Assembly (NCBI RefSeq): GCF_030463535.1
Contig: NC_132896.1
Span: 25,357,709 to 25,421,708, forward strand
DNA length: 64,000 bases
Direction: 5' to 3'
From: Salminus brasiliensis
Taxonomy: Eukaryota > Chordata > Actinopteri > Characiformes > Bryconidae
Below are positions 18,501 through 64,000 of the stretch, one piece after another; position 1 is the stretch's first letter, and every line of letters begins with the position of its first letter. The notes below the pieces were generated by a model. That model was given only the letters and a program-made list of their open reading frames with translations. It was not told the DNA's origin and made no database searches. The position numbers and the translations under genes are program-made.

Positions 18501-19132
18501 CACAGAGCTCCGCAGACTCAACAAAGAGGTATAGTCATTGCAGCCTTTGCCCAGCTCCAACCATCTTAATCATCCAGCTTTGACTACCTAAATCGCCTAG
18601 CTCCCACCACCTAAATGTCTCAGCTCCATTCCCCTTAACTACCTAAATCACCCAGCTCTGACTACCTTAATCATCTATCTCTGACTACCTAAATTACTGA
18701 ACTCTGACCACTGAAATGATGCAACACTAACCACCTAAATCGCCCATCTTAAACAACCTGGGTTTTTTAACCCTGCTGGGTAATGTGGACAGAGGAATCA
18801 CAAAGTGACATCTGGGAACAAAAACAACAACAGAGGTACAAAAAGGACACCTTCTTCTTCAATGCCACGTTAAAAGCATTTGCTGTTTTATTAAGGTGTC
18901 TCGCAAACTCTCCTGAAATGCTGACATGCTCAGGGAGTGCAAATATATTCAACAATGAATTCCTTGTGTTTCCAAAGGCTTTCTCTGTGATAAAATTAGT
19001 CTTTTTATATAGTGTTTCCTGCCTCCCATCCTCCTTTCACTTTATGACACAAGGAAGAATACAAGAGACTGAGACACAGCCTGAGGAGATGTGGAGAGGA
19101 CTGCAGTGTTTATGTGTGTGTGTTTGTATATA

Positions 19133-19165
<33 letters not shown>

Positions 19166-22100
19166 CACAGCTGATGAAACTAAATGAGGACTGGGACCAC
19201 ATCTACCGCAGTACCAGTGCAGGCCTGCAGCAGCGCGTGGCTGCTCTGGAGCAGGAAAACACAGCCCTCAAGCAACTCAACAGCAGACTTCTGCTGAAAG
19301 TGGAGCATGAACAGGTACTACAACACACACCTGTAGTGTCCTCTGGCCTGTGGTTCTCAGCAGTGGTTGGCATTTCACAAAACAAGACTATTAAGGGAAT
19401 AATCCAGTGTTTTTCAGTATTTTAATGGTAATTACAAAAAAAAAGTCAATCTCTTAACACTGACACTCTAATGAATTACTTAATTACTTAATTAAAGTAA
19501 TTCGAATTAATTTTTTTATGTACAAGAAAAATATATATTTAATATTTGATATGTAATACTTATCCTAGACTGTGACAGTTTAAAAACAAAAGACATTTTA
19601 CTGTAATCCTTTATGATTTTATTATTTTCACTTGCATTTATTTTAACACTAAAGCAATTTCAGTGTTGGCCAGTAGGTGGAGCATTACAACATCTGCTTC
19701 CATTTAAACTCTGGGGCAGGCAGTCCTGTCCTGAATTTTTGTCAAGTCGCTTACTTTGGCAGCCACCAGTTCCAGATGTTATGTGATTAAAAAAGTACTG
19801 CAAATGTGAACTTCAGCAATTAATTGATCTATTTGGTAATAAAATCTAATTAGATTGCACTGAAATGTCTGACAGGTTCTATTCATTGGTTAACAAAGTT
19901 TTGTGTAATTATTTAGGTAACATGATAGTAGGTGGCCATCTAATTATTAAGATGAAAAAGGAAAATATCTCATAAGTGGTTCATTTTTGAGTAACAATGT
20001 GATACACTAAATTATGGGGTAAGGTCACAGTTTTAAGCTTTATATTATATGGCATACTACTAGTCTGTTGCCTAGATATTAAACTGAATCTGGCCACTGG
20101 GGGCAGTGGTGGCTCAGTGGATAGAGCACTGGGTTATTGATGACAGGGTTGTGGGTTTGCCAAGCTGCCACTGTTGGGCCCTTGAGCAAAGCTCTTAACC
20201 CTCTTTACTCACCAGGCACCACAGCGATGGCTGCCCTCCGCTCTGGGCATAGTGTGTATGTATGTCACAACACATTTGAATCATTTCAGTGTAATTATGT
20301 TAACCTGTTCTGGAAATTGCCATCATGTCACTAAAGATAATTACCTAGTTCTTATCAGCTCCAGAACATGTAGAACGTAAAAAAAGGGCTGATCTAAAAC
20401 AGTTTACATTTAATGAAATGTGTGGAATGAAACACTGGTCAAGCACAGCAATGTATCGATTGGTTTTGCTTGGAAAATGCAGGTAGATGTAAGTAAGATG
20501 CAAGTTCTTATCTTGTGAGCAAGAACAAAGCTTGGTTCCAGATTTCACCTAGACGCCCCATAAAGCGCAAGGATTTGTTCAATTTGATCACCAGCCCACC
20601 TGATTCAACATCATAAAGCACTGATTAGAATTGCGTTTTACTGAGTAAATAAACTTACACTTACTCTCCAAATAAGGTGCCTAACACTTTGGCCCAGTAC
20701 TATATATCTAACAGAAAGCAGAGCTTTATGAGGCTATGTTGTAATGTTCCTTGTCATTCTTGAATTACTGCGTTAGTGCCATATCTCATCTAGTTTGTCC
20801 ATGCCCATACTCAACCTAAGTAAATAGGACTACTTGGTCGGCTGCCTCTGCATCCTCATTCTAGAGGGTGTCCTGAGCATCTAAGGGTTTTGTTGTGTTT
20901 CACAAGTTGTTGACCCACCGTTCAGGCTTATTAAATTTATCCTTAGTGATAAACAGGTAAATTATTATGAAGGTTCAGGCCAAGTATTATGGGGTCTTGG
21001 CAGAATGACAGGGACTGTGATGTGCAATCAGGAGATCAAGGGTATTCTGCTGGCTATGGCGGTTGAAGTGTCTGCAGGTATTTGTTCCAGCCACGCACAG
21101 CAGTACTTAATTTGACTAATTAGGGATCCTGCTTTGTTACAGAAGAGAGCCATTAGTGAAATCAGGTGTTGTGCAGGGCTTGAAAACTGAGCTCCCTGCA
21201 ATACATGTTGCGTGATATGGATGGCTGGGCTCGTGACTTGTTTATGTAATGGAATGGAAAGCAGCAGCTTTCTGGGAAATGGTCCATTGACCAGGCTTTT
21301 GCATGGCACCTCTGCCCTCGCCATCCACTTCATTAGGAAAATCTACCTTGTGCTTCCACTCACTGGCCATTTTATGAGGTCCATTTGCCTTACAAGGCAC
21401 ACCACTGTATAGCTGTACAATTACGGACTGTAGCCCAGCATTAATCATATGCAATTTGTCATCACCGGTCAGTTTCTGACCACAGGATATTGATATTGAC
21501 AAGATATTATTGAGGTAGTGGAACACAACGGTAACACTGACATGGTAGCACTGGTTCCAGAACATCACATAAAGTGGGGCTGCCAAGGTTTTTACACACT
21601 TTTTTACAAATGTACAGCCAAGGGCCATTTTGTGCTCAGAACCTAACAAAGATCTATATTGGATGCCTTATGCAACTTGTGCACAAATGGGCTACAGTCT
21701 CTTATTGTGCACCGGAAAGATGGTTCTAAAAGCAAGGTTCTCTTTCAGAGTGTTAAAACTGTGACTATAAGGCATCTTAAATTCTGTGTACATGGTTGTA
21801 TTCAGTTGTATTCATATACGTGGTTTGTTTTGTGCAGAATAAAAGTGAGTATTACGAGCACACCCTGATGCAGGAGCTAAAGAAGAATCAGCATCTTCAG
21901 GAGTACGTCCGCCTCCTGGAGAGCCGAATGCACCGCACAGACACACTGAATGACTGGGCTTTAGGAACACAGGTGATTACCATACAGTGTCTATGTGTGC
22001 ATATGTATAGTAACTGTTTCCCAGTTTTCCCAGTTTTGTAAGACTGTCAATAAAGTCTTACAATAGTATAATCTATAATCTATAGTCACTACATTGGTCA

Positions 22101-25100
22101 AAGATATATATAAATCACACCATTTCATCTCATCATCCTCAACATGATGTTATATACACGTTGCTGACATGCTTCTGTAACTGGATTTAAACTGGGAGAA
22201 AAATGGATTTTAGTTAAGGTTAGGGTAGTTTTTTGGGCTGAGGTTGAGGTCAGGGTTAGGATTAGAGCCAGGGTTTAAGTTGATCTTAAATTAAGTCTAG
22301 GATTAGGTTTAGGTTTTGGGTTGAGGTTAGGATTAGGATCAGGACCAGAGTTAAGGATTAATTAAGGTGAATCTGCTTATTTGAAGTAACATATGTCTCC
22401 TTCATTAAGTCATCTAAGAGATCAACAATACATAAACTATACATACAATACATCTACAAAGGACCAGTCAAAATAAAGGGTTTTCAAGTATTATCTAAAT
22501 GTTTTTAAAATAATATTAATGATATTCTATCAGTCATGAAGACCTTACCTCACATAAAATGCAAGGACCCATTGGTGCAATATTAGTAATCCCACATTAA
22601 TCTTTACAGTCTTACATTGTACTGGTGATTAATCTTATTTATCTTACTTATCTTAAATTAACAGATTCTATGTAATTAAATGTTTATATTGTGATAGGAA
22701 ACAGAAGGCTTTGTCTAAAGGCCTTTAAAAGCTCCATCACCATATTATAACATTAAAACATCACAAATAATCTCAGACAAATCACACAAAGAAAGCATCA
22801 TTTTTTTGTTCTGCTGCACGGTCCAGTACCAGATCATTTCGGAAAGTAACTAAAACATCCATCAAGAGTCGTTGTGTCTTTGCAAAATCAATGTGAAAAG
22901 AAATAATAAAATAAGTGTTTTTTTATCCTTATTATTATTCCTGTTGCTGCTGCTACTGTTGTTCTTGTTTTTAATTCCACACTTTTTCATTGTCCTTTCT
23001 CTCCAGAACACGTCAGCTGTCATCTCACCTCCAGAGCCTCAGCTCCTGGAGCGTACCCCTAAATCCCCCGCAAGCTTTGTGTCCACCCCTGGGCTCTCCG
23101 CAACTACAGCTCCACCTTCAGAGGTCCACCAGAGGAGCAGGTCGAGCCGTGAGCTCCTTGAAAACCACACCAGCCCAGCCAATGCTGTTAAAGAAGTGCA
23201 GGATCTAAAAGAGCAGCTAGAGGCCTTGAGGTGTCAGGTGAGCAAGTAGCATTAAGTCTGTGGGTCAAGCTGTGCAGGACATTTCACCCCAGGGCCGCAC
23301 TTCAGTGATAAGAATCAGATGCGACTGTGTCAAGGATAAGTGTCTGTGCTCTCATCGTAAAATGGACTGTACCCTACAAACACGCTGCTCACATCTGAGT
23401 GGATGGACAGCACTGCCCAGTGGACATATTAAGATCATCCAGTTTCTATTCCTGGGACCTGCAGTGCTAATCAGACGTTTGGAATCACTTGTCATAAGTA
23501 GTCACAAGTAGTTAATTATAGATATATCATCGCTGTTACCCAAAAACCTCGTATTTAAATTTTTCTCTTCTTGACAGATTCTGAATCTGTCAGCTGTTCT
23601 TTAAATCTGGTTAAATGTCATGATGAACGGAGCAATATAAATGCTCAAAAAGTACCTTTTTATATTGACTTCCATTTAAATTAAGATGTTTTTTCTGTAA
23701 AGTTGCCGATTTGGAGATACAAGGTTTTTATGTGATAGTGATGATTCAATTGGAGGATACATATTATATAAAAACTGATTTTCTCACTTCCTCACTATAA
23801 CACTGGTTCACAGTGGACCCAGCATATATATACATATACTTACCAATTCAGCCCCAAGGGATAAAGGGAGGTTGGGGAAATAGTGATATGATAGGAGAGA
23901 AAATAATACAGAGGAAATTGTAAAATAGGGGGACTTTAATATGTTTATTCAATAACAGCTTTATTTTAATTATACAACAATGTTTTAATTATTGTATTAG
24001 ATTATTTTTACCTATTGTAAACTAGGCCTCTCTCTTCAGTGTTTAATTGAATATTTAAGGTGTTTTGAATCAAACTAATTATTAGAAAGCAAATAATATA
24101 AATATTTACAACTGTAGCTATTCTTGTGAAATCGAACCAATGTGATCTTATTTTCTATTGGATATGAAACACTGAGACTTCAGAACCCAGCAAGGAAAGT
24201 AGAGACGTGGTCTACGTATTTTTACCATATATAAAAACCACTGCAATTTCTACTTCCAGACTAAAATCTATGAGGCTGACTATAAGACAGAACACAAGGA
24301 CCATGAACGCATGGTGCAGGAGAACAAGAGGCTCCGGCGGCGTGAGGGAGAGATGCGCCAGCAGATGGCACTGTTGCAAGAGCAGGTGAGTTAGAGATGT
24401 TGAGTCATGGACAGCATCAGCTTCTCCATTTGGAAGGAGAGATGCTCTTTCTGGTCATTTTATTAGAAGCGCCTACTGTGCAGCCCATCTGTTGATACAC
24501 AATTTGTGTCAACTACCCTCTAGCTCTTCATTAATGGTCACTTTCGGACCCCAGGACCACTGGTGTCTGAATGCATTTTGTTAATGGGTTATTTTTGGCT
24601 CAGCAATGATACTGATGTGTAGAAAAAACACCAGCAACAGCACTGTCCCTACTACATTACCATGCCAATGCCATGATGGGGGTACTGCTGTGCTGAGAAT
24701 GGCCCACCAACCAAAATAATATCAGTTCAACAGCAGCACTGTGGAAAGAAACAGGTCAATGATGAATGAGTTCAAAGATGGATAGCACAAATTGAGCAAC
24801 AGACTGATGTGGAATATGGTCTTGTATTTGCACACCTGTAGACCTATAAAGGCAGGTTAGTGAGTGTAATAAATTGGATACTGATCACATATATCAATAT
24901 GAACACAATCATAATACATACAGTAAATGTGATGCCACATATACTGCTTTTATTAAGTACTGTGTAAAATTCAGAGACATTTATTGATTTACCAGTCTAA
25001 CCAGACATTAATTTTAATTTAGGCATTTATAAAGGTGATATTTCTGAGACAATTAGTTAGAATATAATTCAGATATGTAAGGCTGAAGTTGATGGAAGGT

Positions 25101-31170: not shown

Positions 31171-33640
31171 ATGAGCACAAAGGTGACAGAGGTTCAGGCA
31201 CTGTACGAGCAGCAGGGCTATCTGACCAGCATTCCCATACTCAATGCAGAGGAGCTACAGCAGGCAAGAGATGCCTTTGCCCAGCTGGAGAAGAAGTTTG
31301 GTAAGTTCTAAAGAAGCTTGGATGATAAAACACTCTCACTAAGAATATTGCACTGAAAATCAAAGGCAATCAAAAATGTACTTTTGGTTCCCTGGTTCTT
31401 TGACTTTTAAGTTCTTCTCTGTGATGGAGAAATGGCTGTATATGGTTTCTTTAAACAATGGTTCCATTATTATTACAGGTCAGAAATGATTTGCTATGAG
31501 TGCAGTTAATACTCTTACTACATTGTACTGGAGGTCATTTCTGTTGGTCTATTAATTACAGTTAGGTATATGCTTGTTCTGCTGCAGGTGAGGACTACAC
31601 TTCCTACAGCCTCCACAATATTCATATGGAATATGACTGGGTCATGGCACTGGCGAAACACCCCAGAGTTCTGGAAATGATCACAGCGGTCCTGGGCCCT
31701 GATGTGATCATGCTAGACTCCCGCTTCATCTGCAAATATTCAGTGTCCAGAGAAAGCGTTGCCAAGACTGAAGAAAGCAATGGCATCATTCCTTTCCATC
31801 AAGAGAGTGAGGCTGAGAAGGAAGTGTCTGAGCAGAAGAGTGATTCTGGGCTTCCATATGTGGCCTGGCATCAGGACATGAAGTAAGTCAAAAGTGAAAA
31901 TAGAACTGCAGAAGAAATACATTATAAAAAATGAGATTTTAGCAAATGAAATTATCTGCAGCCCAGTTTAAATTCTAAAGACTGTTTTAAGATTACTTAA
32001 ACCTGTTTTTTGAAATGAGCAACACATGCTGCAAGAAACTCCATTTCAGTGGATAAAATGACTTTAAACATTCTTACAAACATCTCATGAATGAAAAATA
32101 CTAGATATTTAGACTACATTCATCATCAGCATCCTCTATTACATTGGTCTCCAACCCTCCTGAACCCTTCTTTCTGTAGGTTCCTCCAGTCCAAATCTAA
32201 AACACTTTATTTAGCTAAACAAGCACTTCTGAAGAGATCGATTAGGGCTGTATCTAAAGTTGTAGCTAAAGGAAGGTAGATATGCAGAGTTGTGGATCAT
32301 ACGATCTTAATGCCTTTGATTTGTTAGAATCATGATCTACATCAGTACATACTGCAGATCTGGAGGCCATGTTCTAAATACTTGTCTTTTGTCTTTGCTC
32401 ATAGGTATTGGGGACTTGATGGCGGGCCAGTTGTTTCTGTTTGGCTTGCCTTGGATGACTCTCTGGAGGACAACGGTGCCTTACAAGTCATTCCAGGTAC
32501 AAATCGTTCAGACACATTTGTACATACTTTCTGTTCTGCTCAGTCAAGCACTCTTCATGTAGTCTGCACAAGTTCTCACACCATGGCAGCCTAGATTGCC
32601 CGACGCCAAGTCAATAAGGAAGTTGTGCTTTAATGATATTTTTCCAGCTTCTGTATGTTCTAAATATAACAGCTTCTTTCAGTCTGTCCAAACTAAAGTG
32701 TGCAGATCTTTCCTGGCTAAATAGTACTCTGGAATCTGGGTTACGTATTAGGTTTAATTATAAGCTTTGTTACTTTTCCAACAGGAACTCACCACTCTGG
32801 CCTTTTGCCCCACCATCAAGCTAAACGTGCCGGCAACATGCTGACTGTCAATCAGGAGATCCCGGAGGAGCTGGTGCAGGAAGAAAACGCTGTGCTCTGC
32901 CCCCTACTGGCTGGGCAGATGTCTGTAAGTCTGCACATGCACCGTTTTAATTTTTAATTTTTTTTTGTGATGATGTATAGTATGTCTGAAATGACATAGC
33001 ATATTAAACATATACATTTGTATAGAGGTTTGCCAGCCCTGGTTAAATAACTACATATCCTCTGGAGAACACACTTCTACAAATTATAATGCACAATGAC
33101 TAACTAGCTAATTTAACATATTGCAGAAATAAACAAAAAATCTAAAAATCCTAAATTGTGGTATATACAAAGGATAATTAAGTATTGCTGTTGTTATTAA
33201 TTAGCTTATGTTAAATTAGATGGAAAGTAAATAGAAATTGTGCCAATATTATTAAAAAGTATGCATGTTCAATGTTCAAGCTTTCAGTATCAGTGTACTC
33301 ATGATATTGTTTCGTGTAGATCCATGATGGACTCTTGGTCCATGCTAGTGATCCCAACACATCACAGAGGAGGCGCTGTGGCTTCGTGATCCGCTACATC
33401 CCTACTGCAGCTTATCCAATTCAGGTAAAATTCCAACACTGCCTTTTTCAGTCTGGATTGATAATATATGTTTATGGTTTGGAAAGAAATATGATTTTTC
33501 TTACAGAACTTACAGAACTGAAAAAAAATTCTTTGTGTTTGTCACAGGATCCTGAACGTCCCAGGCATTTCCCTGCCACAACACTGGTTAGCGGGTTTGA
33601 CAAGTACAATCACTTCGCTAGCCAAAAACCTGAAATGTGA
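31171..33640 (+). CDS. Phytanoyl-CoA dioxygenase (PhyH) family oxygenase
   Basis: Six coding exons: 31171-31300, 31588-31882, 32405-32496, 32785-32924, 33320-33424 and 33548-33640, giving 284 residues with all phases closing. The start MSTKVTEVQALYEQQGYL has the F/Y-x-GYL opening typical of PhyH proteins. The iron-binding facial triad is visible: HQD at 138-140 in WHQDMKYWGLDGG, then His227 in LLVHASDPN; Arg238 in SQRRRCGF is the likely 2-oxoglutarate-binding arginine. The Asp of HxD is present, so it should be a hydroxylase rather than a halogenase. The block VWLALDDS..DNGALQVIPG (about 155-173) is closest, from memory, to bacterial PhyH/SyrB2-like enzymes rather than to peroxisomal PHYH. 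Residues about 95-132 form an acidic insertion. No C-terminal peroxisomal SKL-like signal is seen (ends KPEM), so it is probably cytosolic. Substrate unknown. Confidence 0.88.
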
Positions 33641-35496: not shown

Positions 35497-37750
35497 TCAA
35501 GCAAGTTTGAGAACTTCTATGACCATCACCCCCAGTCCATCATAGATCTCATGTACGGGAGCATTGCACATAAAAGCACTAGTAGTGACCAGTTTATTCT
35601 TTTTATCCACATGCACTTCTCCTACATTCTTATTGACATGCTTACAACCCAGCTCCACCATGGACTTGGCTACTCCAGCGTATGGCCACCTACAAAGACA
35701 ACAGGAGAGAGAGAGATCAGTACTGCAGATGAACCAGTGTGGAAAAATGCTTGCATGTTCCCAAGAGACCTGATGCCACAGTGAATGGACACTATGGATG
35801 TAATGCAATATCACTGTCAATATCTGTTTAGGGCCCAGGGTTTTAAACCAGACGCAGGCATGGCATAGGCCAATTAAGTTTATGTTGACAATTTAATGGG
35901 TACTTTCCACAGAATTCAACAGAAAGACATGGACAATAAACATTTAAGATATTTATATATTTATTTATTTAGACTCCAGCTGATCTGTGTGTATTCAGTG
36001 TGATGCAGTAGCTTGGCTACATTAAGAGGGTAACGTTTTAAAATGTAAATATACTTTGCCAGTATATTTACTGGGGCCATGAGCTACAGATCAGGGAAAA
36101 TGATTTATAAATTACTTTCTTATTCATTTTTTTGTAATGTAATTTAATAATAATTAAAGATTTAACTATTTTATTTTCACTATTTAAAGTTTTTAGCCTC
36201 TGCAGTCCCCTCTGGTTCCACTCTACTATGGGCGCAGATGTTGTGCCTTAGCAACAGAGCACAAAGCTAAGTTGCAATATGCAAACCACTCAACCTATGT
36301 TATCACCGTTGCTGACAACACCCTTCTCATGCTACACAGAATAAATATGTTGAGTATGAGATATGAGAAGGAGACTGTGCGAACACAGTTGCAAGTCAAA
36401 TAGGTTGTTGCTATTATCCCACGTAATGATATTAGATATTAGGTGTGAGAAACTCAGAGTAATACACTTTTTGAGCTTTGAGCTAACAGTGGTGAATAAT
36501 CATTTTCCCACACTTGGTTTAACAGCACTCTGCATATACACACAAGCTGATTTTGGATATCTGTATGCTCTGATAAGCACATCTGCATCTTACCGGCCTT
36601 TGCTTTATTTCTAAAAAGTTGCACTCTCTCTATTTCTCTGTGTTTACTGATACTAGAAGAAAGATAAGGCGTTTTGTAAAGGTGTATGTGCAACGTTATT
36701 GTGATAATGTTCACAGGCTGCATTTGGATCAAAGGGAAGCTAAGGTACACTAAGGTAAGGGCCACTGTTGGACTACGGGTGGCAAAGCTGATGGCCAACT
36801 GGTGCAGTGACTTTTTGTTCATTGTCTTCTGATTGGCCTGCTGACAGTTAAGCATAAGCATAGTTCATCAGTTCTTTGAGAACTCTTTGAGAATGAGATG
36901 AATGAATAGGACATTCTCAAACCATTAAAGGACCATTCAAGCAGTGGAAATTACACCCTGATACTCACTTCTCACACTCGCAGTCGTGGCCTACAGTGAG
37001 TTCACAGCCAGGGATAGCCTTGGCTGCGAGCACTGGGGCAATGCAGCACATGGCAATAGGCTTGCCAGCCTGACTGAAACTTTTGATGACCTTCTCCACC
37101 TGTGGTTTTACTGAGTACTCTTTCCCCTTGGTGGCCCAGTCGCTCAGGTTCTTTGCTGCTCCAAACCCTCCTGCACAGAACAGTTAAAAGCCATGTTTAT
37201 TCGAAACTTTGCATGACATGAAGACTCATGGGCTGGATTTCCTGACACCAAATTGGGTTTGGTTCTATAATAAAGGCTGAATAATGGCTGTTTTTTTAAC
37301 GAACCTGGAATGATGAGAGCATCAAAGTCAGCTACATTCAGCTTGGCCAGGTCAGTGATCTCTCCACGAGCGATGCGGGCACTTTCCTGCATCACGTTGC
37401 GCTTTTCTGTTGAAGGTTTTCCCTCACAGTGGTTCACCACGTGCATCATCTCAGCATTGGGGGCAAACATCTGGACCTGCAGAGGAACGTGGTCCAATAA
37501 AATGAGAACTCCACCAGATTCTTAGCACCATTTACTCGTTAAAGGAGAGTGGCATGGAAACTCAGGGTCAGAGTTGTTCTTAGTGGTGGTTATAGGAGCC
37601 AGATAAAAGCTACCTCACAAAAAGCTTATTTCATGAGATGGTTACAAATTTGTTGATGTTTGAGACCTTCTTTTAAAATGGTTGTGGCCTAAAATGCATG
37701 TTTAAGACCTTTAAGCAGGGTAATGTAAGCTAACTTAATATATACTTTAC

Positions 37751-37808
<58 letters not shown>

Positions 37809-38267
37809 CAACTATTTTTATAATGATCAACATTACATATAAAAGCTCAGAAGACATGTGAAGTAGTTTTAATTAGCAATCCAAATATCCATATTTTCAT
37901 AGTAAACATGACAAAATCTGCTTCCAAACATGCCAAAGATTTAATTATGCAAAAATGTAGAAAAATGAATAGCATTCCCCTTGAAATGAATGTATATTTT
38001 TTAAGTAATTTTGGTTTGCATGCACGCGCAGTGTAATAAGAAACTGGTAGGCTTGGCATTCTTCATTTCAAAGGAACCAAGGTATCTTGCCAAGAGAGAC
38101 AACTGATACCCTACATTTGAAAACGTGACACATTTTGTGTGTGTGTGAGTTTGTTTTACCTTGGCACCAGCCCGACTAAGGTGTACCAGTATGGCAGAAG
38201 CCTCGTGGATCTCAGTCCCATCGTAGACTCCACAGCCAGCAAGGATGACAGCCACACGTTTTGCCAT
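35497..38267 (-). CDS. es1: ES1/GATD3-like (DJ-1/PfpI superfamily) protein
   Basis: Four coding exons on the minus strand: 38267-38160, 37476-37305, 37170-36969 and 35689-35497, giving 224 residues. The start [36 protein letters not shown] (residues about 66-81), [17 protein letters not shown] (94-110), [14 protein letters not shown] (133-146) and [15 protein letters not shown] are all hallmarks of the ES1/C21orf33/GATD3 family, related to bacterial ElbB. Cys135/Cys136 sit at the nucleophile-elbow position of the class-I amidotransferase fold. Known ES1/GATD3 proteins are mitochondrial and carry a presequence; this one starts directly on the first beta strand, so it is probably cytosolic. A noncoding first exon (38930-38873) is inferred upstream. 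It is convergent with the oxygenase gene and divergent from gene A. Its catalytic activity is unsettled; glyoxalase-like or deglycase-like roles have been discussed for relatives. Confidence 0.9.
37754..37806. repeat. (TA)n microsatellite
   Basis: A pure TA run of about 50 bases in the first coding intron of es1. Confidence 0.95.
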
Positions 38268-39974: not shown

Positions 39975-40244
39975 ATGGCAGCTGCACAGTCTGACCCCGA
40001 GTCGCTGCACTTCTCCGTGGCTGTGCTGGGGATCTCAGGCGGTAGGTTACACATCACATTAAAAAAATATTAAAATATTAAAGAATATTTAGAATTTTAT
40101 ATATGTCTGTCTTTGTTTTTGTTTGGGCATGATTTATAAAAACTACTGTTCTCACATTTACATTTATTTACTATTATTTTATTATTTTAATATACTATAT
40201 TTTTAACGGAAGTAAATGCTTTAATGATGTTAAACACTTGAAGT

Positions 40245-40300
<56 letters not shown>

Positions 40301-43300
40301 TCATATTATTAATTATAGCAATGACAGTCATATAATCACTCTTGTTTTACACTGTATTTTTGCTTTTTTGTTATAGTGTTATGGTGAAATAATAAACTGA
40401 ATTAAAACTGTGCATGTCTAATATTATTACTATTATAAAATCTGCTTTTCAAGTGTGTGGTACCGATCTTTTCCACACTAATAAATGTCGCCAGTAGAGG
40501 GCGCTTAATAGTACTCCACTGCCGAAAGACGAATGTAAGTAAATATATGTGTATTACAGAGAGGTGTGTGAGCGTTTCACAGCGTTTTAGAAATCTGTAA
40601 TAGCGAACCTTCTTTCCATCCCTGATAAAGGCTCTTTACTGCTGCTGGTCAACAACTATGGCAGCTCCTCTGGTAAACCCCTTATCCCGGACACATCTCT
40701 CGGGGTACTGCTCCTCATTATCTCCGCCCTGCTGGCTTATGCAGGTGAGAGTCATTATTGAGAACATAGAAGGGTACATATGACTGGAAAGACTGAGGCA
40801 GAGTCATAGACAAAAAAAAAAAAAAAACAATATATATGCAGGACATTCAGACTGATCAAGAAATACAGTATTAATTACTGCGTAGTTAGTTCTTTTTTTT
40901 GGAATTTCTAAATGGGTAAGATGCAGACAAAGTCATTCAGATTGGTTAGATGTAAAATGTGTAGTTCTAAAAAAAAAACGTTTGTCAAAATTGCTCATCA
41001 TTTTAGGAATCAGATGCCTGAAGCATTTAAGACTTATTCCATCAGAGAAAGTCATTTAAAATAATAATTTCAAATAATTTTAATTTTCTGGTCTGAAACA
41101 TATTTTCTAAAGTAGAGAAGTTTATACAGGGTGTAAGAACAATTTCATGATTGGAATTTATTTCTATTTTGCTTAGACGGGTTAGGGCCCACAAGCCATT
41201 TTGGATAGTAAATTATAATATATAATAAAAAAATATATATACATATATATATGTAATATATAACATATATATATATGTCATATTTTATATAATATAATTC
41301 TATAAAAATAATAGAATTATACTCATCAAGGTCACATTTCTATTACAAAAATATTCTTTATGGTTCTTTATGGATACCAAAGTGGTTCTTCTGTGAAATT
41401 ACTCAAAGAACCTTTTGTAGCACCTTTATTTTTTAGAGTGTACACTGCACCAGTCTCTCTGTACTTTTCCATGCCTGTACTAAATAGAACGTTTCTTCTG
41501 TTTTAGGAGTGCGCCGGAGTTTGTCCAACAGCTCTATCTTTGTCAGTTTGTGTCTGACTGTGTCAGCTTTGTGGTGTGGCTCAGGGCTGATTTATATCCT
41601 TGAAGGCGAAGGTGTAATAGTGAACCAGCTGAGAAATGCAATGGTGCCAGGGCTTGCCGCTTTTACTTTAGCGCTGTTTATCATTTGTATAGTGGCTGTC
41701 CTACAGAGAGAGACTGTCTTCTCCTTCATTGCCCTCTCCATATGTTTGGCATGTGCCCACCAGATTGCTGGCCTGGCTAACTCAAACTTTGGCCAGTCAG
41801 CCACTGCTGCCTGTTACCTCCTGGTCTGTTTTGTGGGCGCTTACTTTGGGAGCGGACGCTTGTTGTCCTACATCACCCGTGGTAAGATTCAGCTGCCAGG
41901 GATGGGTCTACAGAGCAAGACAAGTTCAAAGTTAGCACAGGGTCAGGAAGCTAACGATGTAGTTGCAGTAGGTTTGGTGATGAACTTGTTGTCAGCCAGC
42001 GTGCTGGCATGTCCCCTGCTTGGTGTGGTCCCTCAGCTCTTCGCTGGCCATGTTCCATGGCTGTGGACAGCTGGGGTTTACCAGCTGGGCGTGTGTGTCC
42101 TTTCCTTTAGAGCCATGGACACCCTGTCTGGCACCTTCTATGGCTTTACGGCCATACTGAAGTTTTCCGAAGGGTATTGTGCGCTAGTGAAGGACTTAAC
42201 AAATCAAGAGCCCTATTCCCCAGTACCCTTCCCTACGGTCTTCTCAGTGCTCTTCTTTGTTCTGGCTTTGTTTAGCTGCCAGCGAAGCTTACTCGACAGC
42301 CTCTACGAGCTCTTCTTCGTAGCGTACTGTATAGCAATTGCTGCCCAACCCAGAGGCTTTTTTCAGGGGGGCACACAGGGTGTTGAAGCTGCTATATTTG
42401 TAGCATCTGCCCTTGTGCTCCTGGTGACCCTCTACAACAAAGAGTCTCCAAAGAAGATACCCACAGGTGAGGGTCTCCTCAAGAATCTTCTGAGTCGAGG
42501 TAGTAAACTCTCTCTACGAACCCAGGACAAAGATCTGCATGCACCATATTTGGGCTATTCCAAATATGCAGATGCTGAGGCGTTAGCTCATGGCTGCAGT
42601 GTTCTGGCAGCTTTTGCCATCACTGCTAGTACAGCTGGTCAGAATCCCCTGGCAGTTTTAATTTTGCCATGGGCTGTGGTTTCAGGCGGCGTGCTGCAGT
42701 TGCTGTGTGGATCTGTGGCCTTTTCCCGAGGTAAGACTCTAGAGAGTGCAGCCTTCATTCTCTATGGCTTCATGTGGACAGTTTGGGGCCTGACACGTTT
42801 CGGTGGTCTCTATGGCGATGTCCGTGGATTCCAAGTAGCAGTGGGAATCATCAGCTTCATGCTTTTCAATGTTCTAGTGACAGCAGGAGCCCTGTTCCTC
42901 AACTTAGCATGGTTTGTCTATGCCCTGACATTTGAGCTCATCCTCATTAGCTTCTTGCTGGACGCAGTGGGGGCACTGCCCTATGGCTACGACATTGGTG
43001 TCACCATCATCTTTGGCTTGATTAGCTTCTACTTTTTCTTGGCCAACCTTTTCAACAGCACTTTTGAGACTCCGCAACTTCCATTTGGCGACCCACTGAT
43101 CAAGTTGAGCGGGTTTGGTGGAGGCAAGGACAGCTGTCCGCATCTGCCAGCAAGGAAAGCCACATCTGTACATGAGATTGCAGGTGAGATGCTTATCATT
43201 GAGGCAGAAATTCAAATGAAAGAGTAGCTGACAGTTGGTACAGTCTGATCATGATGACATTGTTTGTATGTTTCTAGAGATCATGAAAAATGGAGGAATA

Positions 43301-44673
43301 TGTGGAATGCCCACTGACACAGTGTATGTGCTTGTGGCGGCTTGCAATCGGCCAGAGGCTGTCGAGAAAGCTTATAAGTAAGATTTATTTCCTTTCTAAT
43401 GACAATGGCAATATAATCCAAACATATCAACAACAGTGATTATACTGAAATATTATTAGAAAAAAACACAGTTTTTGCATAATTTAAAAACGGACATTTA
43501 CAGCATTGCAGAGTTTCGTGCTGAAGGGGCCAAACTAAAATGTCACATCTAATATTGTGCGATTTTCTATGTAGGGTGAAGAAGCAGGCTCAAGAACGTC
43601 CCATGTCATTATGGATCTCTTCCCTTAAGCAGCTAGAACCAGTCAGGCAACAGATCAATCCAGTGCTCTGGGACTTCATGGAGGCTGCTTGGCCCTCATC
43701 AATCAGCATGGTCATTCCTAGGGGTGGGTTTCTTTACAGCCTTATACACTGCAGCTCAACAATCAGGCACCTTATTAGAACTTTATTTGAACATTTTGTG
43801 AAACCTTGCTCTGTTCCTTAGCCCCATGGATGGAATTCTTTGGTTTGGGTGATTCCTCAAAATATATCGGCACACCACAAAGCATAGCCATCAGAATTCC
43901 AGACTGCACCGTTGCAACTCACCTTATTAGCTTGGTATGTTGTTTCATTTTGTTGTGATTTAGTCTATTATGATGTATTTATTATCTGTTAACTCTGTTT
44001 TGATTCATAAATATAATGTTATTTTTTGTGTGATTATTCCAAATTTTCCTGTGTGTGTAATAGGTTGGCCCTATTGCTGTTACATCAGCCAACCCGACGG
44101 GTGAGGCAGACACGACCCATCACAACCAGGTGTATGCCAAGTTGGGTGATAAGGTAAATTTTTACCCTGTAGTAATAAATGGAGTAAACATGTCAGTTTC
44201 CCATTATTACACACCGGATACAATAGTCATTGTATTTGTTTGCGTAGGTCGATGGAGTCCTGTGTGATGGGCCTTCACCTGAAAATATTGCCTCCACTGT
44301 CGTTGACTGTACTAAGGTTGATAGTGGTCAAATCGGCTTTTTCAGGGTCGGTCTGATACCAAAGTCTACGGTAATGCGCACTTATCCAGAGCACAGATCT
44401 TAATATGCAGTGTTTTGTCCACTCAGGCATATTAACAAACTCCTTTTGTCCTGCGATCCTCTCCAGGTCCTGCAAATCTTTGAGGAGATTCAGATGAGAC
44501 ATCGGAACGGACATTTGAATGAAGGTTTTGAGGTAGACTTCACAGAACCTCAGACATATTTAACAGATCCCGAAACAGACTCAGGCTTAAGCCAGCGAAC
44601 CCCTGCAGAGTCGCTGAGCTCGCTTGACCTCAGTCAGCACCACAATCAGGACAGTGAAGAAGATTTTTTGTAA
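39975..44673 (+). CDS. Gene A: triple SatP-like membrane protein fused to YrdC
   Basis: Nine coding exons: 39975-40041, 40631-40744, 41507-43183, 43278-43377, 43575-43723, 43822-43934, 44064-44153, 44248-44370 and 44467-44673, giving 879 residues with every phase closing. Residues about 12-590 form roughly 18 hydrophobic helices in three six-helix repeats (about 12-180, 211-371, 414-591). Repeat 3 carries GGVLQLLCGSVAFSRGKTLE (454-473), then YGFMW, and ends TPQLPFGDP (582-590); this follows the GPR1/FUN34/YaaH (SatP) pattern of a helix-capping F/Y-x-[KR]-G-x-T followed by SYG-FW and a terminal LP-x-G motif. Residues 620-811 are a YrdC/Sua5 domain: GGICGMPTDTVYVL (625-638), TSANPTG (747-753), STVV (786-789). 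The usual KxR...KP loop reads KKQAQERP (655-662), so one catalytic-loop Arg and the Lys are substituted. The tail (812-879) is acidic and Ser-rich. SatP relatives carry acetate/succinate; YrdC proteins make threonylcarbamoyl-AMP. The function of the fusion is unknown. Confidence 0.88.
40248..40301. repeat. (AAT)n microsatellite
   Basis: A pure AAT/ATA trinucleotide run in the first intron of gene A. Confidence 0.95.
41339..41440. repeat. MITE-like repeat, copy 3
   Basis: TTCTTTATGGTTCTTTATGG, CAAAGTGGTTCTTC and AAAGAACCTTTTGTAGCACC match the family of 12905-13115. It is in intron 2 of gene A, 67 bases before the large exon. Confidence 0.6.
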
Positions 44674-57046: not shown

Positions 57047-60000
57047 TTATGCCATATTGTTCTTCACCCTCTCAAAAATCTGCCGCACCTTTACTGCAGG
57101 AACGCAACCTTCCCGCAGAATGCCTATCGTACCTGAGAACAAAACATAGACATCGTAAGCATCTATAAAAAAAATGCAGACAACAGAATCTCTTTGCTGG
57201 CGTTTTCAGTTTCAGATTACCTTCATCGATTTTCAGGCAGTTGACCACAGTTGATGCTACCACTTCATTGGACTCTCCGTCACACAGAACTCCTTGAATC
57301 TTGTGTCCAAGGCGACTGTCAGAAGGACAAGAGTATAACTGACAACAATATCATTGGCTACTGAACTATGATGAACTATTTGTGCTGGCACTAAAGGATT
57401 CATTGACTTTTTAATCTAAAAAGACAGGAAATAATGAGGGCCATTTCCGTGTCACTGTATTATGTAAGCGAACTCTGTTTGTGAAATAGTGATTGACATA
57501 AACAATTTATATAATAATTAAATTGTTCAGCGAACCGCCTTCTAAAGGTGAAGACCTTTGACAAATGTCTCCACACTGCTTATTAAATGAATGGATCAGT
57601 AAGCAAGAGGTTTCAAAGTCGGCTAGGAAAAGGGTTTGACAATAGTGGATTGTATGTGTTTGATTGCTACTTGGACTGCACTGATGAAGGATATTTAAAC
57701 AACCCTTTCTGAAGACCACACTGTAATAAACACGTAAGGAAAAAAAAACAAAGCACCAAAACACAACTCACCTAATGACCATGTCATGGTGTGTGCTGTC
57801 AGGTTCACCACTAGGGTTTGCAGATGTGATGGCCAATGGTCCAGTGATCTCACACAGGTGAGCAGTGACTGTGTGGTCTGGAACTCGGATCATTATGCTT
57901 TCCTTGGTCCCCACACGGTCATATGCAGGTCCCACACCTTAAAAAACGAAAATCACCCAAGAAGATTACTTGAAACCCAAGAACATAAGTCTATGATGTA
58001 TACTGATGGATGATGATGTCCTACAATGCTGCTCCCTCACCAAGTTTGAAGAGCCAGTCACCCTTCGGCACAATGCAGCTGATGCCTCCTGGGTAGACGT
58101 TTCTCATGAACTCCCACAGCAGGGGGCTGAATGGAGGTTTGGCTGCCACAAGCTGCTCCACACTAGAGATACAAATGCAGATGGGCTTCTCTGCAGGACG
58201 GTCCTATGAACCAGGAATGCGCACAGGTTAGTCAACCTGATCTTTAGTTTATTCCTAATAAACATGGTAATGCATTGTGTATGCAGTAAAACTTGGAGCT
58301 CACTTTGATATTGTAGATCTTCTCTATTGCACTAGGATTCTTGCAAGAAGCAGCCAAGGCATAGACAGTATCCGTTGGAATACCACACACACAGTCTTTT
58401 TCAAGCAATTTAGCAATCTGTAGGAGCCCACCGGTCCCCCGAGAGCTAGCAATTGGACATGGAGTTGTGGGAGCAGATTCTTTCTTCTTTTTATTCTTAA
58501 AATAAGGAAATTACAAAGTATAATCAACATCTCTCAGTGATAACTTGAGATGGTTCATGAGATATTTAGTAAAGCAAGTTGGGGGAAAAAATTACCTTTA
58601 TCAGTGCAGGGCCAAGCGGTATCAGATTCTTGGAGAAGATGCAGTTGATAAGTGATGCCAGAGTTCCATACAGACAGGTGATGGCAAATAGTGAAAGCAT
58701 AGCAACTGAAAAAAGAATAGCAAAAAGAATATAAACTCATTACAGTTGTGTGTTAAATGATAGCAAGGTCGCATTTTTTATTTTGTATTAGACAGACTTT
58801 ACCTTCTAGTTGGTAGGGCAGTCTACCAAGGGTGGAGAGAAGAAAGCAAACCACCATGATCTCCATGATGGTGGTTAATGTCAGCAGAACAAGACTGCCA
58901 TAGGCAGCTGCAAATGATAAGAATAAGAAATGTTGTTTACCTTTGTAAAAAACGTATTGGCAATGTCCAAAATATGGCATTTTTTAAATAAAAAAACTTA
59001 CCAATTAGCATCAAGAAAGCATTGATCACCAGAAAAGCTATTGCTCCAGCTGTAAAGCCACCTGCTGTTTCAGTGGTAATATGCAGATGATGTCCTGTAA
59101 ATAGATGATCGAAGTTTTATTTAGAAATCCAGTATTATTCAATGTAAGAGTGTATCACAAGAAATTACATATATAGTATTTACATTGAATGCGATATTAC
59201 ATGGACATACCTCCAAACCTGAACCATGTCCAGGTGGCCCAAATGGCCACGTAGAAAGATGGTATAACAGAGCCAAACCTCCTGCCACCTTGAACCTGAA
59301 GTCGACTAACATACCCCTGGATAATGGCTCCTGGGATGAGCACCCAGGGTACAGTCAGTTCTAGAAAGCCTGGGAGGGGCTGGTTGTTGTGGATGGCTGA
59401 GAGCGCTGCCACTCCATTGGTGAGGTAAAACAGAGCATCGGGAAGTTGGGAGCCTTTTCCATGGGGTTGCTCCTTTAGAGACTTCCTCATGCAACCTAGG
59501 CCATTCTGGAGTCGATCAGTTGAGACAGGTTGAGGTCCGACCGGAATCAGAGACTTCTCTGCTATGGTGTTGATCAGACGTGCAAATGTGCCATATAATG
59601 AGAGAGCTGTGAAGATGGAACACATCACTCCAAAAAAGATGTAGTACCTATGAAGAGGGATCTGGGAGATTGTTGAGATGGTTAGCAGGAAGAAGGCGGC
59701 ATTGTGGAGAAGCTCCAGGGTATCCATGTTCAGGCATGCAATGCAGAGAACCAGAGCTGCTGCCAGAAAGAACCAGTCTCCCACCATGGCCTGTCTTCCT
59801 GTAGCTTCTTCACTCCTTCCAGTCACAACAGACACAACATACTCTTCCCAGGTCTTCACAAGCCAGTAGGTGCAATGCAGGCCAAACTTGGTGGTGTGGT
59901 AACAATCTTGTCGCAGGTAAGCATAGTAACTGGACAGGAGCTGGGTGGCAGAGTTAATAGTTATCCAGATGGCACCTAGTGTGAGTGTCGGGAAGTAGCC

Positions 60001-62272
60001 AAAAGCGTAGAAGGCGAAGATGAATGGTGAGATTGTGTCACAGAAGAAGCCCAAGGCCATGGGTTCAGCATATTTTGTGTTCTTCTTTTTCTCTTGGCCT
60101 AGACTCTGAGAGCTGCTGGCGTTGGTTGTCCCGAGGAGCAGCACATTAAAGAGAGGGTTACCGAAGCCCTTGAGGACATAGCGTTGGGCCAGACCTTTGA
60201 TGAGCAATGCTGCTGAGCCATAGATGGCAAAGAGCAGAATGAGGAGCTCCAGAACTCCTGAGACCACCAGAGCCCACTTACCCACTAGTCCCACAGCCTC
60301 AAATACCAATGTGAGGGTGATGGCTCCAAACACAAAGGGCATAATGTAGTTCACTGTGGCCGAGCAGAATGCCAACAGCAAGGACAGAAAGATGTAGGGC
60401 ACCAGCCCAGCTATGGCAGCTTCACTGATGTATCTAGGGACGGAGGTTTCACTGGCAGGAGTGGAGTTTAAGAAAAGGTTGTTGAGTGTAACGTTTATCA
60501 TGGTTGAAGTATTTGTATTTGTATTTGTGTGTATTTCCTGGTTCGCTCCTATAAATATTCTTGTTGCACCGTAACTTCCCCAAAGAGCTGCATAGCCAAT
60601 GAAAGCCGTGCCACTAAGATGGTCATATTTACGGAATGATAAGAAGCCAGCGATTAACTGGCACACTCCTCCAATTAGAATCAGATGAACACCTATACAG
60701 GCCCAGAGAAAGAACACAGGAATTAAAACTACATTAAGAATAAGGAACCTTCTAGGCTGGAAATTTTGATTTGATTCTCACAGCATAACGACGCAGAATA
60801 ACTTTAGTTCATTGTTCTGTAAATATTTTTTATTGTAATTTTCTATTCAAATAGATGGTGATAGTGGTTAGCAGATGTAAAAAAAATACCTGCAAGGATG
60901 CTCTCTACTCCAAATGCTGGAATCCCAGTTCTGGCTCCATTGAAGTTCTGTAGAAGCACAACAAATGCACTGATGCCATTGGACAAGAGGCCAAGCACTC
61001 CAGGCTCACTGTAGAAACTAGCAGGAAAGCCATTTCCTGATGCCATCACGCCGGTTGACTTTAGCTGATAAGGCTGCGGGATAAGATCAAGGAAACGAAA
61101 AAGAAATATTTTAAAGGACTTTCGATATTCGGGCAGTTCGGATATTCGGGTCATGATTTATTTATTGGCTAATCAGGATATTTACATATTCATACATTCA
61201 TATATATATATATTCCAGAAACATTTCCAGAAAATGAAAGGATAAAGTTCAGACAAAATGAATATTAAATGGGTTACAATGAGGTTGGTCAGGGTGCTTA
61301 TATGTCTTTACATTAACAATTCATGTTAACATTTATGATACCAATTTACAACCATAATTAAATATTATAGTTATTAAACAGTAACAGAAAAATCATCCAC
61401 ACTTAATTTGAATGAGCACCATATGATGTATGAAGGTTATATTTAGGGTTAGGTGTTAGGTTGAAGTTAAATTTAAGCTTATAATCTTTTACATATAACT
61501 TAGAGTTCAGCTGCACAAGTATAGATAAAGATAAAAAAAAGCATCAATATATTTGTTGTTTATTATTTTTTTCACAGTTTTTGTTAATTGTACAATTGAA
61601 AATTACATTTTTGTAATTTTGAATATTTGAATGTTTTTCTATTCCTGTCAGACCTTCTCCCCGTGTCACCCTTTCCCTCCCTCTAAGCTTGCAGAGTAAG
61701 CATTTGGTTACAGCCCTTCTACAGGTGTGTTTCATTTCATATCCTGCCACCATCAAGAGCTGACACAGGTGCTCTGTTCAGCTGCGGCAGCTCTCTGGCA
61801 AATCTGAGACGCTGACACTGACCCTGGAGCTCCCCACAGAGGCAGAGCATAATATTGTTTCTCTGACTTAAATGGGACTCCTATCTCCTTTCCATTGCCA
61901 TGACACTTCTTTGGAGCTTATGGTCCAGAATAGACTCAAGGGCTTCATCCTGGTTTGGCTCAGTACCTTCAAACTCTGGACACCAATGTAGACCTTGTGG
62001 TAAGACTTCTTTGATTTTCTTAAAGCTGTTAAAGGCTAGTGTTCATTTGTTCAGCTGATTTTCATTTTCTCAAATACACTGATGTCTAATAAGCTTCTTT
62101 ATGCCATCCCTTCTCTCCCACTCTCAAATCAGACCAAATGATAGAAGAAGGAACTTACCTGGTGAAGGTCCTTGATCTGAAGTGTTGGATTGCAGTAGAA
62201 GGATGCTCTATGTTTAAAGGATATGTGCTTCTGTGGAGTAGGAGGAGCACCAAAACTCAGAGCCAACCCCAT
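57047..62272 (-). CDS. Gene B: triple SatP-like membrane protein fused to YrdC
   Basis: Eleven coding exons on the minus strand: 62272-62159, 61073-60890, 60692-59211, 59094-59002, 58907-58803, 58705-58596, 58495-58304, 58203-58062, 57937-57772, 57315-57221 and 57132-57047, giving 922 residues; all phases close. Three SatP-like repeats are visible. Repeat 1 opens EPGVLGLLSNGISAFVVLLQ (61-80), matching the NPAPLGL...TT signature of GPR1/FUN34/YaaH proteins, and has GGVCQLIAGFLSFRKYDHLS (107-126) plus GTAFIGYAALW. Repeat 2 opens EPMALGFF (about 309) and ends LIPVGP; repeat 3 (about 518-690) ends LIPLGPAL. A loop at about 155-180 carries three N-glycosylation sequons (NTS, NVT, NST), so it is probably extracytosolic. 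A Lys-rich linker (697-702) leads to the YrdC domain: GIPTDTVYAL, KDRPAEKP (760-767, the canonical KxR...KP loop retained), TSANPSG (845-851), STVV, ILREG. It is divergent from acod1 and paralogous to gene A. Confidence 0.9.
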
Positions 62273-62717: not shown

Positions 62718-64000
62718 TAGAATAAATAGGTACTATACAATGAACTGGTACTGTATGCCCTCAGGGCTTTTAGTTTACTTTTCCAATATCTAGTGAGATT
62801 TGGCTTGGCTGATGCTCCAAGCCTTACCTGTTCATACCAGGGCAGTGATGTATCATGTCTAATTTGTGTTGTTAGTGAAAGTTAAAAGCTTTTACATTCT
62901 AGAGAAATGCCTGTAATGTATTTCAGTCAGGAGTTTATGTAATGGAAGGTAATTCCTCAATGACATCCTGATGCATCTGGTAAAACCTGATTAGCTGAGC
63001 AATGGTTTACTTAATATACTGAGACAAGATGAGTCAGCCATAATGAACTATTCAGGCTTGGGGAAATAAATGAGTATAAAGACATTAGAGAGATATTACT
63101 AAGTTGGTCTATTCTACACTAGAATAAAAGCATCAGTGTTTCATTTGAAACATTCAAGCATATATCTTTGTTTTGTCCAGAGATCCTTCAGACCCCTGAG
63201 CACCTTGACCATGGTCAGAGGACTGCATAAATCTGCACTAGATGGTAAGCCAAAACAGTTCCCCTCTTATTTTAGTCCAGATTGACAAACATTTTTAGCA
63301 ACTGGTCTTACCAAGACATTTGTCTTTGAACACTGCTGAAATGGACGAGGCATTAAATTCTCTTGCCTTTGTGTTCAGTGGTGGAACGCCCAGCCTCTGA
63401 GGAAACCGTGACCAGCAGTTTTGGCAGGTTCATCCAGGGTGTGCAGCCAAGGCATCTGTCGTCTAAGGTGCTTCAACGCAGCAAGCGCATGGTGCTGGAC
63501 AGCATCGGTGTAGGGTTGCTGGGTAGCACCACTGAAGTCTTCGAGTTGGCTCTCCAGCACTGCCAGGTAAGGACACAGAGTCAAGAGGAAACAAAATTGT
63601 AATTTATAGAATGTGCCTTTTTGATGCAGTGTCTGTGGACCATACTGTATGTGGTACAACTCAATACATTTTTCAAGATGCAAACAAAATCATTTGTGAG
63701 TGGTCCTAGAGTGGTCTAATGAGAAATTATCTGTTCTAGATAAACCACCAAACCACTTTATGACTTTATTTACAATATCGGACCATTGAATTCCCCTTTA
63801 ATAGAATTATAAGCATTTTCTGAAGCTTGCCACACCTAATGGGTCTCCTATACTTCAGAATATGAGGAGCAATACAGTACACTGGGTAAACATTTGAATC
63901 ACCACCCTAGAAACCTAGTTCATATCAAATCCTGTTTTCCAAGTAGATCACAAGGAGAGGCATTCAGGGCAGTGTTTTTTGTAGAGCGATGGCCTGGCCT
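62578..64000 (+). CDS. acod1: cis-Aconitate decarboxylase (itaconate synthase), 5' part
   Basis: Three coding exons are in the window: 62578-62595, 63181-63244 and 63379-63566; the gene continues past the right edge. The 90 residues read include SSFGRFIQGVQPRHLSSKV, LQRSKRMVLDSIGVGLLGST and TEVFELALQHC, matching the start of ACOD1/IRG1 (MmgE/PrpD fold), whose mammalian N-terminus has the same SKRM-LDT-G-G-LG-TTEVF block. The enzyme decarboxylates cis-aconitate to itaconate in mitochondria of activated macrophages. The first 27 residues (MLSKVQRSFRPLSTLTMVRG...) are rich in Arg, Ser and Leu and lack acidic residues until Asp27, which is a good mitochondrial presequence. The remaining catalytic exons are not visible. 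Fish have IRG1-like variants, so the exact paralogue is open. Confidence 0.9.
62641..62715. repeat. (TA)n microsatellite
   Basis: A pure TA run of about 74 bases in acod1 intron 1, 46 bases after the donor. It creates a spurious Tyr-Ile frame. Confidence 0.95.

Follow-up and report, generated by a model that had tools for sequence, protein, structure and literature searches.

Within the 64,000 nucleotides of the Salminus brasiliensis genome analyzed here (the window: contig NC_132896.1 of assembly GCF_030463535.1, positions 25,357,709 to 25,421,708; part of contig C19 in a genome of 1.07 Gb) lies a gene whose layout provokes a question: what is the function of a vertebrate protein that joins three repeats resembling SatP, the succinate-acetate permease, to a YrdC domain like that of the threonylcarbamoyl-AMP synthases? 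We refer to it as gene B, and to a second gene of the same layout in the window as gene A. For the architecture itself, SatP-like repeats and a YrdC domain within a single polypeptide, support comes from the splice model, the profile matches of repeat 1, similarity among the repeats and a low-confidence predicted fold for a gene A repeat. As for function, we tentatively favor the reading, which we judge possible though somewhat short of an even chance, that genes A and B encode a vertebrate Ato/SatP-type carrier of small carboxylates that acts in the inflammatory response, with itaconate as its likeliest cargo; we infer the cargo, direction and compartment.

Gene B is read on the minus strand from 61046 to 57047 in 10 exons, encoding 882 amino acids; all nine introns are of the GT-AG type, and the frame contains no internal stop. 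The parts of gene B, and gene A, are as follows.

57047..61046, minus strand: gene B coding region, with three SatP-like repeats and YrdC, identified by GT-AG introns, an open frame and a PF01300 match (E 4.6e-36)
60890..61046, minus strand: gene B exon 1, with the start ATG and the first helix of repeat 1, including EPGVLGLL; a phmmer alignment (E 0.033) pairs it with NPAPLGLM of SatP (5ys3)
59211..60692, minus strand: gene B exon 2 (1482 bp), an open frame of 506 amino acids with the remainder of repeat 1, the whole of repeat 2 and the start of repeat 3
59094-59002, 58907-58803 and 58705-58596, minus strand: gene B exons 3-5, the remainder of repeat 3
58495-58304, 58203-58041, 57937-57772, 57315-57221 and 57132-57047, minus strand: gene B exons 6-10, the YrdC domain with KDR and SAN
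62159..62272, minus strand: possible upstream exon of gene B, either 5' untranslated region or N-terminal extension, read by eye with a donor after 62159 and an in-frame join to 61074
39975..44673, plus strand: gene A, nine exons, 879 amino acids, eight GT-AG introns, laid out as gene B, with KKQ replacing KxR

An earlier inspection of the letters without database searches (the sequence-only reading) had begun gene B at 62272. An upstream ATG exon (62272-62159) can indeed be read in frame, which is all that speaks for it, but we prefer the predicted start at ATG 61046, because the first residues of gene A align there (MAAAQSDPESLHF / MASGNGFPASFYS). The motifs named in that reading were borne out: EPGVLGLL and GGVCQLIAGFLSFRKYDHLS are both present in repeat 1 on the minus strand, and the LIP-x-GP endings of repeats 2 and 3 occur as LIPVGP and LIPLGP.

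The fusion comes from splice models here, and two separate genes, one for a carrier and one for a YrdC enzyme, could in principle have been joined by them. We consider this highly improbable, because in-frame splice sites link the two parts in both genes, and vertebrate proteins of ~900 amino acids that contain both have been reported (PMC13316224; statements from this and the other papers cited by accession refer to the accessible parts of their texts). According to that June 2026 iScience paper, Ato/AceTr proteins occur widely across Bilateria; the vertebrate members form two clades found in all major lineages except mammals. These members have three Gpr1/Fun34/YaaH domains, with a C-terminal Sua5/YciO/YrdC domain in almost all sequences; some yield fewer than three profile hits. 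Genes A and B, with three tandem SatP-like domains, a C-terminal YrdC domain and lengths of 879 and 882 amino acids, answer to this description. The sequence-only reading had called the fusion unusual, which holds against microbes only, as the published vertebrate Ato proteins have the same layout; so does gene A, a point absent from that reading. The same two facts rule out the fusion as an artefact or a unique event. This type of fusion is already in print; to it our analysis adds the acod1-like neighborhood described below, a second such gene and the difference in YrdC signature between the two.

The YrdC domains of genes A and B are 47% identical and the membrane parts ~23% identical, and a whole-length alignment, computed with an older gene A model, gave E 2.6e-21. 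The YrdC domain of gene A matches PF01300 at E 7.1e-36, and its repeat 3 matches the AceTr_1 profile at E 1.1e-5. That gene A might encode a carrier only, with no YrdC domain (633 amino acids, read through a donor to a stop at 43227), was rejected, as tblastn located YrdC exons at 43277-44385, yielding the present 879 amino acids. At the C-terminus of gene A (44467-44673, plus strand), an acidic, Ser-rich tail of ~59 residues follows the YrdC domain; gene B carries no such tail. When the large exon of each gene was used to search the whole genome, only that exon was returned; the sister gene was missed, so distant copies could escape such a search. A genome search with PF01300 listed gene B and a gene on contig C5, and did not list gene A.

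The membrane parts of both genes were cut by eye into three repeats each, giving six repeats and 15 pairs. The best profile matches among the six belong to gene B repeat 1: E 1.5e-6 and 28.4 bits for AceTr_1 (NF038013; curated cut-off, 50 bits), and E 9.2e-5 and 22.6 bits for PF01184 (curated cut-off, 25 bits). Gene A repeat 3 scores 14.9 bits with PF01184, a profile that found no match up to E 1 in the other four repeats. With AceTr_1, gene B repeat 2 reaches E 1.6; three of the six repeats, gene B repeat 3 among them, matched no acetate-transporter profile even at E 10. The remaining profile matches (TMEM132_C, TgpA_N etc., E >= 0.15) we take as chance. At the NPAPLGL signature, gene B repeat 1 has SEPGVLGL, and gene A repeat 1 shows no clear match. 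The sequence-only reading had proposed three SatP-like repeats and YrdC in one polypeptide, to be checked by a profile search of each third of the helical region. The splice model, the YrdC domain and repeat 1 uphold that proposal, the last with acetate-transporter matches below cut-off, but the profiles do not extend it to repeats 2 and 3.

The repeats were also compared with one another. Over 7200 comparisons with shuffled repeats, the best score was 12.8 bits, and five of the 15 true pairs exceed it: A3-B3 (51.8-53.4 bits), B2-B3 (26.2-28.5), A3-B2 (16.3-18.4), A3-B1 (14.6-15.3) and, narrowly, A2-B1 (13.1-13.6). From these pairs, repeats 2 and 3 of gene B are clearly related to each other, and repeat 1 is tied in via gene A. 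Gene A repeat 1 was assigned by its position and by the whole-length alignment of the two proteins.

Structure prediction had also been suggested in the sequence-only reading. Gene A repeat 3 was modeled with AlphaFold from an alignment of the five other A and B repeat pieces that included no SatP sequence. The model has exactly six helices at low confidence (predicted local distance difference test [pLDDT] score, 59; predicted template-modeling score, 0.49). In a comparison with the PDB (50 best of 314 matches, E <= 10), ranks 1-5 were all SatP chains (5zug, 5ys8, 5ys3), with query-normalized template-modeling (TM) scores of 0.59-0.69, a probability of 1.00 and E values of 0.07-0.13; the TM score at rank 6 was 0.20, and no PDB match of this model fell below E 0.001. 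The fold of this repeat is therefore SatP-like at low confidence, whereas the exon model of gene B reached a pLDDT of only 41. In favor of the carrier reading of genes A and B, the fusion lies in one spliced frame in both, the YrdC matches are at E ~1e-35 or better, AceTr profiles match gene B repeat 1 and gene A repeat 3, five of the 15 repeat pairs beat the shuffles, and the gene A repeat 3 model resembles SatP with a best TM score of 0.69.

On which side of the membrane would the YrdC domain reside? Gene B has four N-glycosylation sequons, three of which (residues 113, 119 and 128) share one loop of repeat 1; the fourth is at 243. This Asn/Thr-rich loop (residues 106-130, ~60460-60535, minus strand) is missing from the aligned repeat 1 of gene A. 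Under SatP topology the loop would lie outside and, as the number of helices per unit is even, the YrdC domain would be cytosolic.

The YrdC domain of gene B matches PF01300 over its full length (residues 679-863; 124.4 bits, cut-off 25.1), and its best match among solved threonylcarbamoyl-AMP synthases has E 2.9e-19. With TIGR00057, neither gene B (121.4 bits) nor the gene A domain (118.5 bits) reaches the equivalog cut-off of 123.2 bits. The signature of working YrdC proteins is KxR...SxN (PMC3223725, PMC9654439). In gene B it is preserved as KDR and SAN, which line up with the KER/KGR and SAN of two solved Sua5 proteins and of the genome's own YRDC-like gene; gene A breaks it with KKQ and SAN and retains the whole domain.

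The intact signature and near-cut-off TIGR00057 score of gene B would suit a membrane-anchored threonylcarbamoyl-AMP synthase, in which the helices mainly position an active YrdC domain and thereby raise N6-threonylcarbamoyladenosine (t6A) or a related carbamoylation in stress. This explanation is quite improbable in our estimation: a separate YRDC-like gene resides on contig C5 (two matching pieces), the Arg of KxR is gone from gene A, which nonetheless retains the whole domain, and three carrier-like repeats would exceed the need of an anchor. The C5 gene also makes a housekeeping t6A enzyme unlikely as the sole role. The domain could instead be a sensor, in which the binding of ATP, bicarbonate or an amino acid opens or closes the carrier and no product is made; the sequence-only reading had raised both the sensing module and the anchored enzyme. 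Thr, HCO3- and an ATP analogue are known ligands of solved Sua5 proteins (PMC9654439), and gene A keeps the domain despite the lost signature residue. IRIP, presumably the same protein as YRDC, reportedly features in the title of a paper, known to us from a reference list, that links it to the regulation of transporter activity. Nevertheless, the intact signature of gene B suggests that catalysis is still selected for, and we view a pure sensor as improbable.

The best clue to the function of gene B is, we think, its acod1-like neighbor, on which the sequence-only reading did not draw. Three neighboring genes bear on the question.

63211..64000, plus strand, on past the window to ~66740: acod1/irg1-like gene, start placed by eye, with MmgE_PrpD domains
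35500..38267, minus strand: exons of an ES1/ElbB-like gene (ElbB model E 1.5e-24, 87.1 bits against a cut-off of 180)
31171..33637, plus strand, ends approximate: PhyH-family dioxygenase gene, exons by eye; joined exons match PF05721 at E 2.5e-24 and carry HxD (WHQD) followed further on by a His (LLVHAS)

The acod1-like exons, put together by eye, match solved cis-aconitate decarboxylases over nearly their full length: 459 of the 472 encoded residues pair with 7br9_A at E 4.8e-170. This gene and gene B are arranged head to head, with starts ~2.2 kb apart if the acod1-like start, placed by eye, is accepted. Single exon pieces of the PhyH gene fall below the Pfam cut-off, and only the joined exons match; among the exon pieces of the ES1/ElbB-like gene that were tried, none matched Pfam. 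Elsewhere in the window (~18199-23246, plus strand) are coiled-coil-like exons, by eye perhaps of the TNIP type, of which the pieces tried reach no Pfam cut-off. Upstream of the window (L004:2807-3979, minus strand) is an open frame of 390 amino acids that resembles, by eye, a non-LTR retrotransposon reverse transcriptase.

A second acod1 is located on contig C8 (C8:18313000-18332800) and is 56% identical over the long exon. It is flanked by an ES1/ElbB-like gene and by a gene that we take to be kctd12-like. The ES1-like gene of the window has four exon matches, 59-81% identical, to this ES1-like neighbor. The acod1-ES1 neighborhood thus occurs twice in the genome. A larger duplicated block between the C19 and C8 loci was considered and rejected, with nothing shown beyond acod1 and the ES1-like gene: the kctd12-like query from C8 had no match up to E 1 in the window or in four further stretches (L003, L004, L014, L015), and a glutaredoxin query gave only E 0.067 and 0.89 there. 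In those four stretches, nothing matched genes A and B at E 1 or better.

Published zebrafish data provide a second line of evidence. The genes si:ch211-153b23.4 and.5 likely correspond to genes B and A, respectively, by label and shared clone name. In Shigella-infected zebrafish, irg1l,.4 (labelled YrdC domain-containing protein-like) and.5 are consecutive among the top 50 changed genes, a list that also includes a phytanoyl-CoA dioxygenase-like gene. In a table on perfluorooctane sulfonate, irg1l,.4 and.5 make up three of the five genes in one "upregulated" cell (PMC9228135), and with iron oxide particles a single module has irg1l,.3 and.5 among its hubs (PMC11140123). Across the 18 columns of a table that covers 4-nonylphenol, triclosan and triclocarban (PMC8877790), the correlation with irg1l is 0.90 for.4, 0.86 for.5 and 0.88 for.3, as against 0.91 for sult5a1, 0.50 for hsp90b1 and 0.39 for mgst3a.

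These shared responses of irg1l,.4 and.5 and the acod1-like neighbor support itaconate as the cargo. So does chemistry: SatP is by name a permease for succinate as well as acetate, and itaconate is a succinate-like dicarboxylate. Were genes A and B such an itaconate carrier, each chain would comprise 18 helices and would pair with another (B-B or A-B) into a SatP-like ring of six units, as has been proposed in print for the family. Each unit would pass a carboxylate together with protons. The induced cargo would be itaconate from the neighboring decarboxylase, moved across the plasma membrane or into the phagosome or another vesicle in infection or injury. The YrdC domain, in the cytosol, would bind ATP, bicarbonate and an amino acid. 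In gene B it could form a threonylcarbamoyl-AMP-like product (or an acyl-adenylate), or act as a switch on the carrier that senses ATP or bicarbonate; in gene A it would probably be a non-catalytic partner with a regulatory role only. A bolder version, which we hold to be unlikely, is that A and B are co-induced subunits of a hetero-oligomeric itaconate carrier, that they form with the PhyH and ES1-like genes an animal itaconate cluster, and that the active YrdC of B and the decayed YrdC of A couple delivery to ATP and bicarbonate.

Several observations weigh against an itaconate carrier. In the membrane part, none of the six repeats reaches a curated AceTr/SatP cut-off (PF01184, NF038013), and gene B repeats 2 and 3 are without a significant profile match. 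Ten of the 15 repeat pairs, including B1-B2, B1-B3 and all pairs with A1, stay inside the shuffled range (<= 12.8 bits). A simple hydropathy scan, for which 18 segments are expected, finds 12 in gene B; the older gene A model gives 15. The low pLDDT noted above is that of a single-sequence model of 493 gene B residues from the large exon. Sequon 243 of gene B and sequons 68 and 577 of gene A add nothing to the topology argument. For vertebrate Ato members, no transport data are known to us. In vertebrates, gene neighborhood is weak evidence. The C8 acod1 has an ES1-like neighbor, yet the 20 kb around it hold no match to gene A or B at E 1 or better. Exact NF-kB-type sites (GGGRNWYYCC) number 2 in the window against 2.9 expected, and the interval that separates gene B from the acod1-like gene has none. 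With regard to zebrafish,.4 and.5 are linked to B and A solely through label and clone name, the legend of the Shigella top-50 list gives no direction per gene, and co-induction with irg1l is not specific, as sult5a1 follows it just as closely.

The last of these points, the absence of a fusion gene around the C8 acod1 and the acetate and other short carboxylates that are the studied Ato cargo (PMC13316224) all suit a carrier for some small anion, such as acetate, succinate or lactate, that has no special link to itaconate. Its acod1-like neighbor would then reflect a shared inducible chromatin domain. Head-to-head genes can be co-expressed without a common pathway. Against this stand the small cluster in which two fusion copies accompany acod1-like, ES1-like and PhyH genes and the reports of irg1l alongside.4 or.5 in four separate studies; we consider a general small-anion carrier somewhat unlikely.

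If genes A and B do encode an itaconate carrier, a carrier of microbial type would move itaconate in non-mammalian vertebrates, and in the bolder version the cluster would make and modify itaconate and deliver it, or a hydroxylated form of it, at infected surfaces. For the vertebrate Ato-YrdC fusions in print, none of them in mammals, the accessible text states no cargo, and their description regards what the fusion implies as unclear and proposes that import is perhaps coupled to metabolic assimilation (PMC13316224). The main text of that paper makes no mention of itaconate, irg1, synteny or neighbor genes, and the open-access literature searched, as far as its texts were accessible, yielded no printed link between the fusion and itaconate and no published account of a fusion gene-acod1 neighborhood. 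For these fusions, the acod1-like neighborhood and the zebrafish responses suggest a testable function. In addition, a gene pair with and without the YrdC signature is a natural test of the role of the fused domain.

How do genes A and B compare with known systems? With SatP/AceTr proteins (PF01184; 5ZUG, 5YS3, 5YS8) they share the six-helix fold of the modeled gene A repeat, and the GG..Q...G...F block and TAF-like stretch found in gene B repeat 1 and partly in gene A repeat 3. They differ in having three units per chain, scores below cut-off, an NPAPLGL signature kept only in part (EPGVLGL), and an attached YrdC domain. The TsaC/Sua5/YRDC synthases (PF01300, TIGR00057) have the full-length domain in common with them, along with PTDTVY, KxR and SxN in gene B, at 24-33% identity to two solved Sua5 proteins and the genome's own, partial, YRDC-like gene; unlike those enzymes, the domain here is fused to a carrier and has KKQ in gene A.

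ABCG2 and SLC13A3, transporters linked to itaconate in animals, belong to protein families other than SatP/Ato. The former is reported to export itaconate, the latter to take it up (review, PMC13307414). In the Ustilago itaconate cluster, as here, genes for itaconate synthesis adjoin transporter and oxygenase genes; its genes (Tad1, Adi1, Itp1, Mtt1, Cyp3, Rdo1) are different ones, so the likeness is an analogy only (PMC6064134). The closest counterparts are the vertebrate Ato-YrdC fusions, such as A0A3B3D9A3 of Oryzias melastigma, which agree with genes A and B in length, in the three domains and in YrdC, with no difference found in the published description. A predicted fish Ato protein superimposes on SatP with a TM score of 0.82, and a dimer in the form of a six-unit ring has been proposed for it; two clades of such proteins are published, and two genes are present here (PMC13316224).

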